Assembly: GCA_026387155.1 (NCBI GenBank)
Contig: JAPLMF010000027.1
Span: 18,317 to 60,452, forward strand
Origin: Candidatus Omnitrophota bacterium
Lineage (GTDB): Bacteria; Omnitrophota; Gorgyraeia; 2-01-FULL-45-10
Direction: 5' to 3'
Length of the DNA stretch: 42,136 bases
A model generated the notes under the pieces. The model did no database searches, was not told where the DNA came from, and was given only the letters and a program-made list of their open reading frames with translations. Below are positions 3,508 to 21,445 of this stretch, one piece after another. Positions within the stretch are counted from its first letter, which is position 1. Each line of letters starts with the position of its first letter. The translations under genes were made by a program, and so were the position numbers.

Positions 3508-3617
3508 AGGCTTATTATACCAAATAAGTTCCTTGGCTAGATAAATTTTTAGGGTCCTGCCCCCTTGTTAACCCTAAGCCTCGTTATGCTCTCATTGAAA
3601 ATACTCCTCTTACAGAT

Positions 3618-4170
3618 GGCGGTAGTTTTGCGTTACCGCCTTCCGCTCGTCGTCCCGCCGCATTGGGCATGCGGCGGGCCTGTGGTAAAATTTTGATGGC
3701 CGCTGAATCTGCATACAACACAGCGGTAGATGGGGTTTAAACCCCATCTACCGAATATGGCTCTTTATAGTGCAGTTTCAGCGTCCGTTCTGTATCGCCC
3801 ATAAGAATCAAAATTTTACAACATTCGCTCCAGGCGGATAACGCCAAAACTACCGCCCTATCAGCTCGCTCCGCTAATTCCATCCCCGGCATGGAATAGA
3901 GCCACTTGAAGGAAAACCAGCTGCCGTCTTTGCTATCGCTGATTTTCCAAAATAAGTGAGCGAGAAACTTTTCCGCTTGAATTTATAAGGACGCCGAAGG
4001 AGCTGTGCCTGGCGGGGCGTCGAAGATCGCGAGCGGGCATGGGGCTGTCTAATAAAGATGAGGCGAGCGAGCGATCTTCCGAGTAAAATTTTCTCGCCGG
4101 GAAAATTTTACGTCCCCGCCAGACACAGCTCCTGAAGGCGGCCTTAAACAGGAAAGCGGAAAATTTCGAG
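3618..4170. repeat. Bipartite structured intergenic element, copy 1 (module A ~3618-3857, module B ~3969-4163)
   Basis: Outer stem GGCGGTAGTTTTG (3618-3630) / CAAAACTACCGCC (3845-3857); TAAAATTTTGAT (3686-3697) / ATCAAAATTTTA (3807-3818); module B stems TTTTCCGCTT/AAGCGGAAAA (3969-3978/4154-4163), AGGAGCTGTG/CACAGCTCCT (3998-4007/4124-4133), GAAGATCGC/GCGATCTTC (4022-4030/4071-4079), TAAAATTTTC/GAAAATTTTA (4084-4093/4101-4110). Shares cores with the copy at 19396-19810. Confidence 0.85.
3724..3753. repeat. 30-bp perfect palindrome inside structured element copy 1
   Basis: CGGTAGATGGGGTTTAAACCCCATCTACCG is its own reverse complement. Confidence 0.95.
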
Positions 4171-4178
4171 CGAACGCG

Positions 4179-4748
4179 TTAGAATAGAAAGACTGCCGCT
4201 GCGACGACGGTCGTGAAGTTGCCCTCAGGGCCGACGACCGCGGTCTGAGTGGTATTGGACGTGCGGACTATCTTGTCACTTAGGTGGTATATAGCTTTAT
4301 TTTCGTCCCACGACTTGTCCTCATCGAATTCAAGCCCCAGTGTGGACGCTAACATTTCTACCGCGAGGTCTTCGGCAAGGTCACCGGCGACTTTTTCGTT
4401 CTGCCCGAAGGCATGGTGCTCACTTAAGTACCCGTATGCGGCAGGATCCGCCGGAACGGCACAGCCTATCGATACCGCTATCAGGCGGTGAGGCTCATTG
4501 CCGGAACAGCGCGACATAACTACATAAGTTATCATGCCGGGATAGACTTCTTTTAAGCCCTCATTCTTCGATATCATCTTGCATTCCGGCGGCAGGATGC
4601 TCGAAACCTTAACGAGATTACACTTCTCTATACCGGCTTCGCGCAGGGCCAGCTCAAAGCTCCGGAGTTCCGCTTTATGCGTACCGACACCCTTGGTAAA
4701 GAACATCTTCTTCGGGACTAAAAGGCTTTTCCTCGGCAGTAGAAGCAT
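4179..4748 (-). CDS. Pyruvoyl-dependent arginine decarboxylase (PvlArgDC)
   Basis: [10 protein letters not shown]..., [11 protein letters not shown] (Ser-Ser autocleavage region), [45 protein letters not shown]. Confidence 0.9.
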
Positions 4749-19367: not shown

Positions 19368-19395
19368 ACGCTCCGCTCAAAATTTTCCGCATTCT

Positions 19396-19810
19396 AATGG
19401 CGGCACCTTCGCGGCCGGTGATAAAATTTTGATGGACAATGAACCTGCAAACACACAAACGATTAAACAGTTTCATTGTCCGTTCTGAACTGCCGTAATG
19501 TATCAAAATTTTATAACATTCGCTCCAGGCGGACCGCAAAGGTGCCGCCATTGCAGCGAACAGAAAAATTTTTCGCCTCTCTTCTATCAAGGTCCTCTGA
19601 GGGATGGGTGTTGAGCGGGGCGTCGAAAATCGCGAGCGGGCATGGTTCCCGCCAAACACCTTTGAAAATGTACTTACTGACATTCTATAGCTATCTCCTT
19701 GTTTGGCGGGAGAGCGAGCGATTTTCCGAGTGAAATTTCCTCGCAGGTGAAATTTCACGTCCCCGCGAAACACCCACCCGAGAGGACTTTGGAAATAGCG
19801 AAAAATTTTA
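19396..19810. repeat. Bipartite structured intergenic element, copy 2 (module A ~19396-19552, module B ~19563-19810)
   Basis: AATGGCGGCACCTTCGCGG/CCGCAAAGGTGCCGCCATT (19396-19414/19534-19552); ATAAAATTTTGAT/ATCAAAATTTTAT (19421-19433/19502-19514); GGACAATGAA/TTCATTGTCC (19434-19443/19472-19481); GAAAATCGC/GCGATTTTC (19625-19633/19718-19726); CCCGCCAAAC/GTTTGGCGGG (19648-19657/19701-19710); TGAAATTTC/GAAATTTCA (19731-19739/19749-19757). Confidence 0.85.
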
Positions 19811-21445
19811 CTTGAGCCTCTTGAACCACTCCGACAGGATCTTCTCGCCTTTTTTGCCGCGTAGCGTGTATCCGAGAGGACCTATGTCGGGCCTGGGGAA
19901 GTAGTTCCACCAGTAGAACCCTTTAAACCAGGGCCTGTTTGTGAGGACCATGAACAGGCTTTCAAGACAATTGGCCTGCTCGTCCTGTGACTCGATCTGG
20001 GAAGCGAGTGTAGGCAGTATCCGCCATGGCTGTTTATTGGAACCCAGCACAGTATCATATCCTATCTCGGTAAATACGATCGGTTTATCGTGGCCTGAGG
20101 TCTCAAGCCACTTCTCCAGTATATCGGCCTGCCTGTTCCACGCGGCTATCAGCTCCTCCTTCGGAGGATTATTTTTATTCGTAAGTGGGAAGTACGCGTC
20201 CATCCCTATATAGTCGACCGCGTCCCAAAATGACACCGTCTCGTACTCGTCCCAGTTTGCGGCATATATAAGGGGGCCGTTATAGACTTCCTTTACCGAT
20301 CTTATTATGTCCAGCCACTTATCCTTCCACCTTTCGGTCGTGGTGTTCGAAAGTTCAGTGCCTATACAAAGGAGCTCGACATCATACTTTGCAGCTAAAG
20401 AAGCGTAATGAAGTATGAGCTCCTTGTAGCTTGCGAACCACTCATCGCTGGGTATGATATTTGATCTGGCGTCTTCATCAACAAGATCTACGTGGGGCTT
20501 CAGCATAACCTTCATACCGAGGGAGTGTATTATGTTTATAGCGTGGCCTAAAGACTCATCACTCGTCGTCTTCTTCGCATCGTAGTATATCTTCTTAGAA
20601 GCAATGTCATCCTGATAGTAGACAGCCATTAGGGCTATCTCCTCCACACCCAGCTGTGACAGATATATGAGGCTGTAGTCGGACATATCACAGCTTAACT
20701 CATTGGTGTTCCACGAAGTGTAATTTACGCCCTTCTGGAATTCAGTATTGACTATAGGCCCCGGGGAAGGGACTATCTGACCTTCAACAAGATTTATCTC
20801 TTCCCTCTTCTTCTCTATGGCCGACTTCTCCTTCTTGCCGGAAAACACCTGGTCATAAGGAAGTTCGCCGGGGTTCTTGTCTTTAGGCCCATACGGTTCT
20901 ATCTCCCATATGGATATACCCCATTCGGGGTTAACCCTGGAGAGGCCGGCTATCTTTATATACCTTGCAGTAACGGGTTTGAAAACTACCTCATTTGTGC
21001 CGCCCCTCTGCCCCTCCAGCGCGACTACCCTGTTCCATGTTTTGGCATCGTCGGAGGATAATATCTCGAAACTGGGCGCGTAAGCCTGCTCCCATTTTAT
21101 GACGATCTTCGAGACGGTCTTCGGTTTACCGAGGTCCATATATATCCACTCGCCTTCCTTGTATGCGGAAGACCAGCGGGTCTCAAGATCTGCGTCGAAC
21201 GGCGCCATGGGATCGGGCCTCGGCGCCCAGTCCGGAGTCTCGTCGAAACCGGAGACGGAGGCCGATTGCACTTTAAGATATACGAGATCGTCGTTCGCAC
21301 TTCGCGCGGCTACAACTTCTTGGGGTTTTTGTACCTGCTGCTTATCGTTCTCCTGCGCGCACGAGGCATTCGTAAACACAAGCATGCTTAATATAACACC
21401 AAGAAATACCATTTTTGTTCTCACAATATACGGTCTTTTATTCAT
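19808..21445 (-). CDS. GH113-like beta-mannanase with N-terminal F5/8 type C (discoidin-like) domain
   Basis: Signal peptide; PFDADLETRWSSAYKEGEWIYMDLGKPKTVSKIVIKWEQAYAPSFEI (discoidin-like); FQKGVNYTSW, LCIGTELSN, IVFTEIGYDT paralogous to the 15401 product. Confidence 0.78.
   Translation of the reverse strand: MNKRPYIVRTKMVFLGVILSMLVFTNASCAQENDKQQVQKPQEVVAARSANDDLVYLKVQSASVSGFDETPDWAPRPDPMAPFDADLETRWSSAYKEGEWIYMDLGKPKTVSKIVIKWEQAYAPSFEILSSDDAKTWNRVVALEGQRGGTNEVVFKPVTARYIKIAGLSRVNPEWGISIWEIEPYGPKDKNPGELPYDQVFSGKKEKSAIEKKREEINLVEGQIVPSPGPIVNTEFQKGVNYTSWNTNELSCDMSDYSLIYLSQLGVEEIALMAVYYQDDIASKKIYYDAKKTTSDESLGHAINIIHSLGMKVMLKPHVDLVDEDARSNIIPSDEWFASYKELILHYASLAAKYDVELLCIGTELSNTTTERWKDKWLDIIRSVKEVYNGPLIYAANWDEYETVSFWDAVDYIGMDAYFPLTNKNNPPKEELIAAWNRQADILEKWLETSGHDKPIVFTEIGYDTVLGSNKQPWRILPTLASQIESQDEQANCLESLFMVLTNRPWFKGFYWWNYFPRPDIGPLGYTLRGKKGEKILSEWFKRLK

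Follow-up and report, generated by a model that had tools for sequence, protein, structure and literature searches.

A repeated element that lies between ordinary genes, and that is undescribed so far, occurs in two intergenic gaps of the 42,136-nucleotide stretch of Candidatus Omnitrophota DNA analyzed here (the window). The best explanation, to which we assign a probability of roughly 0.5, is a family of intergenic elements that are mobile but non-autonomous, are read as folded single-stranded DNA, and share the layout of REPINs without being REPs or REPINs. Each unit comprises 100–200 bases, one strand of which (minus in module A, plus in module B) folds into a three-way junction with an outer stem P1, a long arm carrying an asymmetric internal loop, and a short A+T-rich hairpin; a pseudoknot, supported by covariation, joins the hairpin loop to the internal loop of the long arm. 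Modules A and B stand inverted, head to head, an arrangement that recalls the termini of a miniature transposon.

Architecture of the two copies in the window

The sequence-only reading had described modules A and B at both sites, and the positions, cores and arms that it gave were found again. In copy 1, module A extends over 3618–3857 on the minus strand, which is treated as its "sense" strand, i.e., the strand resembling module B (match to the covariance model R1, 41 pairs, at 3640–3833; 132 bits, E 1.8e-30). The outer stem P1 (GGCGGTAGTTTTG/CAAAACTACCGCC) encloses, all on the minus strand, the hairpin P2 (3652–3680), whose apical loop TTGGGC is the first pseudoknot partner; the A+T-rich stem P3, identified by sequence and covariation (left arm TAAAATTTTGAT, 3686–3697; right arm ATCAAAATTTTA, 3807–3818); the stem P4 (3700–3783), which includes an extra inner hairpin (3724–3753); and the tail GCC (3797–3799), which pairs with the P2 loop as the second pseudoknot partner, based on loop-tail covariation. 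P2 is optional, and so is the inner hairpin, which was found mainly in copies from the window's genome. Module B of copy 1 (3998–4133, plus strand) was delimited by a match to its own covariance model, R2 (4000–4131, 147.9 bits), and by stem covariation over 42 copies; it consists of an outer stem, arm a (4022–4030 with 4071–4079) and an arm b hairpin (4083–4111). A further hairpin of no assigned strand, module C (GGAAAACCAG...CTGATTTTCC, 3911–3948), recognized by sequence inspection and also present on contigs C32 and C42, lies between the two modules in copy 1 but not in copy 2. There, module A (19399–19549, minus strand; R1 match 19390–19528, 96 bits, E 1.4e-21) has neither the P2 hairpin nor the inner hairpin, and arm a of module B (19603–19778, plus strand; R2 match of 148.7 bits, DNA fold z -6.2) contains a long inner hairpin.

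Terminal motifs were noted on the left of copy 1 (AAATTTTTAGGGTCCTG, 3543–3559; ATTTTTC-type ends are enriched on both flanks of A copies), on its right (GGAAAATTTCGAG, 4156–4168, adjoining the stop of the minus-strand gene 4179–4748), and on the right of copy 2 (GCGAAAAATTTTACTTGAG, 19799–19817, overlapping the stop of the minus-strand gene 19808–21445). Both copies lie between minus-strand chromosomal genes, encoding a HypF-like protein and a pyruvoyl-dependent arginine decarboxylase around copy 1, and a response regulator and a GH113 glycoside hydrolase around copy 2. Folding of both strands, a check proposed in the sequence-only reading, placed both copies far below shuffled controls (z about -10 to -13); the A and B units also fold with DNA parameters.

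Copy number and distribution

Searching the host genome (108 contigs, 1.62 Mb) with blastn recovered further A copies on contigs C32, C42, C16, and C13, a B copy of 94% identity on contig C1, and other hairpin modules, also in intergenic gaps. The element had been reported as present twice; both window copies are real, and they are joined by many more in the genome and its relatives. The covariance models, whose construction had likewise been suggested, matched relatives of the source genome widely: R1 found module A in all 26 searched genomes of the host's family, with 1–26 copies each, and R2 found module B in 19 of 25; together with the further copies within the genome, this excludes a chance resemblance between the two sites. 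R1 matched 38 of 386 genomes sampled from the class, with weak but recognizable versions in other families; among 386 genomes sampled from the phylum, all matching genomes belonged to the host's class. The fold is conserved across at least 18 genera, with most of the paired sequence free to change. All searched genomes are draft assemblies; palindromic sequence assembles poorly, and several copies lie at contig ends.

The copies sit singly between chromosomal genes. DNA searches of plasmids and phages yielded no match; a short pattern was matched in one viral contig, which neither R1 nor R2 recognized, and this match is attributed to chance. No Rfam family matched A or B at gathering or at permissive thresholds; the sequence-only reading, too, had not recognized the element as a riboswitch or a named large ncRNA. 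A and B need not occur together, as either occurs alone and A also precedes other hairpin modules.

Modules C to F were inspected by eye. Module D is an imperfect hairpin of ~240 bases with conserved CATGGGATGGGGGTG...CATACAGACATACCAC...TGATAATGAACCCCATG, also found behind A (L006:1195-1440, L007:1195-1450, L009, L020, L023, L035); its pattern gave four matches in named GTDB genomes, about the estimated chance number and in unrelated organisms. At one locus (L044:1-250, on G000:C35) the right end of module D runs into a short contig with an ORF resembling an insertion-sequence transposase. The palindromic module E (GACCCGGCCAGTGGGTTTCGCCTAATTTTGAT...ATCAAAATTTACGGCTCAACCCACGTGGCCGG) stands behind A in place of B or D (L025:1480-1780, L083, L084, L085, L235); at L235 (G004:C143) an IS200-type Y1 gene lies inside the palindrome, as if an insertion sequence had inserted near its tip. 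Module F (AACCCTAAGCCTCGTTATG...GAAAATATT...AGGTCTTTTGTG...) is a repeat module linked to the same arrays (L021:1180-1500, L087, L211:680-1020, L261), and a fragment of it occupies 3565–3610 of the window.

Covariation of stems and variation of arms

Over 87 copies of module A, 94.7% of the stem cells are standard pairs, and over 42 copies of module B 96.5% of the stem cells are paired, figures that lean towards the models since both alignments were fitted to them. Two-sided changes number 616 in A, where 32 of the 41 pairs change on both sides, and 379 cells in B, where 42 of the 44 pairs do so. No shuffle of the A stems reached as high a value, and sliding the partner by one column reduced pairing to 41–47%; paired cells amount to 96.9% in P2, 95.6% in P3, and 91.6% in P4. 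An unbiased scan of all column pairs in the A alignment ranked stem pairs in each of the top 14 places.

The outer stem P1, which lies outside R1, pairs within every copy, and its sequence in one copy bears no relation to that in another. That outer arms differ between copies and stay self-complementary, as claimed from the two window sites, was borne out by additional copies numbering more than 120. In 78 A copies, outer arms of 24 bases show an identity of 0.82 with their own partner, compared to 0.69 when set against the partner arms that other copies of that genome carry; within genome G012, the A cores are 0.88 identical and the left arms 0.61. Two copies of genome G008 (L176 and L178) diverge by 3.8% in unpaired columns, yet 7 of their 12 P2 pairs have changed on both sides, and very close copies differ by 34 double canonical changes versus 9 single-sided ones. 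Since copies that are near-identical elsewhere differ by many two-sided changes, the arms appear to be replaced as blocks. In some copies (L101, L308, L314) the P2 arms read CTCGCTCG on both sides and form a non-pairing direct repeat, with the loop GATTAGGCATC retained.

Pseudoknot and shared three-way junction

In module A, the apical loop of P2 covaries with the tail of the internal loop through pair types that include GGC/GCC, GCC/GGC, and AGC/GCT and number at least four across genera and families. The loop ATTAGGCAT accompanies the tail CGCC in 78 copies, ATTAGCCAT accompanies CGGC in four listed copies of genome G015, and ATTAAGCAT accompanies CGCT in two copies from different genera; another family combines ATTGGCCAT with CGGC, and more distant relatives combine GATACGCGCC with GGCGCG and GATAGGCGCC with GGCGCC. 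On the alignment, 98.8% of the loop-tail cells are paired, with seven two-sided changes, a number that no shuffle reached and that reflects few independent events, perhaps four or five. An analogous contact in module B (GGGC with CGC) shows one two-sided change, at L285. A contact between distant loops cannot arise from correction of one hairpin arm by the other, and its covariation therefore indicates that a single strand must fold.

The minus strand of A and the plus strand of B have a common three-way junction with GCGTYGAA, TTCCGAG, and CGTCCGC. The minus strand of intermediate A copies has GAAGCGGCGTY...TTTTTCCGAG...GCGTCCGC, compared with GAGCGGGGCGTC...TTTTCCGAG...CGTCCCCGC in B; these common strings make homology likely, and A and B are likely to be related elements, judging from their sequences. 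In eight copies, R2 aligns along its whole length with the opposite strand of A (E about 4e-5 to 2e-8), a likeness to be read with caution because palindromes are self-symmetric and because there is also one weak match on the same strand (E 0.008). Wherever A and B are neighbors, the strands of their R1 and R2 matches show the inverted, head-to-head order (15 of 15). The element had been called bipartite, and both modules are real; the description is better given as an inverted pair of two related elements that also occur independently.

Insertion sites and mobility

At the junction between an ilvC-like and a leuA-like gene, names that rest on the encoded sequence, four species of one genus differ: genome G018 is empty, G014 has a short remnant-like gap with TAATTTTTCAC, G021 carries module A, and G024 carries a P1-like hairpin with another module. 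At a second locus, G018 and G021 share a string of genes but have A in different gaps of it, and in related species the element follows different genes. Presence and position thus differ at orthologous sites, which is the behavior of a mobile element; these differences between species at the same junctions could include losses. Orientation to the flanking genes is random (21 vs. 22, tandem gaps), the elements often begin at a stop codon, and 20 of 80 A copies bear the ATTTTTC end motif on both flanks, where about none would be expected. No target-site duplication was seen by eye at the element ends.

The search for an autonomous partner covered Y1 transposases and found no mobilizing enzyme. 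Y1 transposases are present in 21 of 25 relatives, and no Y1 gene was found in the window's genome. None of 24 Y1 loci from the family had A or B within about 2 kb, which excludes only a tight association, since chance would place about half a copy of A in that flanking sequence. As candidate mobilizers, the Y1 transposases were rejected; they never stand beside A or B and have short palindromes of their own. Single, diverse RAYT-like Y1 genes are flanked by short palindromes of their own with GTCCC/GGGAC motifs (L236-L258); these loci are ordinary REP systems of the same bacteria.

Under the mobile-DNA reading, the fold would form in single-stranded DNA, for example during replication, and a putative recombinase would recognize it in trans; insertion would target A+T-rich sites, in many cases immediately after a stop codon, and further hairpins may become nested inside the element.

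Single-stranded DNA, RNA, and other explanations

The sequence-only reading had offered a structured RNA family or a palindromic mobile or recombination element with complementary arms; this pair of options is supported, neither of the outcomes that it had named as refuting having appeared, and the choice between the two is not settled. In RNase P RNA from 20 genomes of the same set (322–570 bases long in the family; L213-L233), G.U makes up 8.7% of standard pairs, and G.U exceeds A.C by 175:28. In the core of module A, G.T accounts for 1.1% and is symmetric with A.C (36:37). On the sense strand, G.T exceeds A.C in the outer stem P1 of A (61:17) and in B (53:12, with G.T at about 3%). Wobble in the element as a whole amounts to about 1–4% of pairs. 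These counts, based on hand-set and model structures, ignore kinship, and counting each genome and column once gave the same picture; the RNAalifold choice of pairs gave higher G.U, dominated by a few conserved columns. In sum, part of the element shows a bias in favor of G.T on the sense strand, yet wobble is much rarer than in the RNase P RNA of the same hosts, and since the core stems differ from that RNA, stem covariation alone is no proof of an RNA. The equal G.T and A.C counts of the A core had raised the idea that complementarity is kept purely at the level of duplex DNA, which is weakened by the strand bias of P1 and B and by the pseudoknot. Rare wobble, block changes of arms, the head-to-head layout and random orientation to genes make us lean towards single-stranded DNA, rather than RNA, as the folded strand.

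The main rival is a multi-copy structured non-coding RNA, possibly ribozyme-like or regulatory, that spreads through the genome and whose sense strand acts as RNA. A pseudoknotted three-way junction with conserved joining segments would suit such an RNA, as would the excess of G.T over A.C on the sense strand of B and the A outer stem and the presence of the element in every family genome; RNase P RNA, however, has wobble pairs several times more often, and those of the A core are symmetric; the head-to-head order would put the sense strand of A and that of B on separate transcripts, the element is oriented at random to genes, and Rfam gave no match. We hold this explanation to be less likely than not. 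The mobile-DNA reading, for its part, has to contend with the absence of a mobilizing enzyme among the Y1 candidates and of target-site duplications at the inspected ends, and with the RNA-like excess of G.T over A.C in B and P1; selectively maintained pseudoknots are also better known from RNAs, which counts against DNA.

Neutral palindromes kept perfect by mutation, through template switching between arms at replication, would account for double canonical changes even in very close copies (34 vs. 9 single-sided), for arms that change in blocks, and for rare wobble, with a fold that has no function. Such a process cannot produce covariation of a loop with a distant internal loop, and it leaves aside the mismatches and unpaired motifs (the ATTAGGCAT loop, the tail CGCC, TTCCGAG) that are conserved across genera; it is improbable as a full account, and template switching may still contribute to the stems. 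Least probable of all, in our estimate, are host-function elements at gene ends, such as terminators or protectors of mRNA 3' ends: the strong fold that often starts at a stop codon would agree with this role, but orientation to genes is random, the element is missing at orthologous junctions, and one copy (L166) sits behind a complete ordinary terminator.

Comparison with known repeat elements

Like REP, BIME, and REPIN sequences with their RAYT (TnpA_REP) transposases, A and B are intergenic, palindromic, and dispersed, form inverted pairs, and have strand-specific features. REPs are palindromes of ~20–60 bases that carry a conserved tetranucleotide, e.g., GTAG (PMC8266576, PMC3116915), are recognized as folded single-stranded DNA (PMC8266576), and form REPINs as inverted pairs (PMC3116915). 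The inverted pairing is shared by all 15 A-B pairs; in contrast to the REP hairpins of 20–60 bases, the units described here have 100–200 bases with a three-way junction and a pseudoknot, occur in 1–30 copies rather than hundreds, have completely variable arms, and do not lie beside Y1 genes, and no common tetranucleotide was seen in the listed flanks of A copies. The sequence-only reading had not recognized the element as a REP, and it differs from one in unit size, tetranucleotide, and Y1 neighborhood.

MITEs and the ERIC, BOX, Correia, and RUP elements are non-coding, multi-copy, foldable, nested or modular sequences between genes, and A and B resemble them in being non-coding, multi-copy, foldable, modular, and intergenic. 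They differ in that neither the terminal inverted repeat of a known transposon nor a target duplication was found, and in that their covariation and pseudoknot extend over many genera. Integron attC sites have variable complementary arms around conserved boxes (RYYYAAC/GTTRRRY), are recognized as a folded single strand, and often lie just behind a stop codon, within a cassette array served by an integrase. A and B likewise have variable but complementary arms around conserved boxes and often follow a stop codon; set against this description, they lie outside cassette arrays, with different boxes, a three-way junction with pseudoknot, and no linked integrase. With the structured RNAs of Rfam they share the three-way junction, the pseudoknot and conserved unpaired segments, whereas they match no family even at permissive thresholds and their wobble is scarce.

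Implications

To our knowledge, those mobile repeats of bacteria that function in single-stranded form are short hairpins; the fold found here is much larger and includes a tertiary contact that is backed by covariation. We tentatively propose, at somewhat less than even chance, a new class of mobile element whose identity would reside in the fold of single-stranded DNA (or RNA) into a three-way junction with a pseudoknot. An enzyme that reads shape more than sequence would move it, and the arms would be free to change completely while their pairing persists. Recognition of a mobile element by shape thereby becomes directly testable, and the outcome would be, either way, a new class of single-stranded-DNA element or a new multi-copy RNA family.
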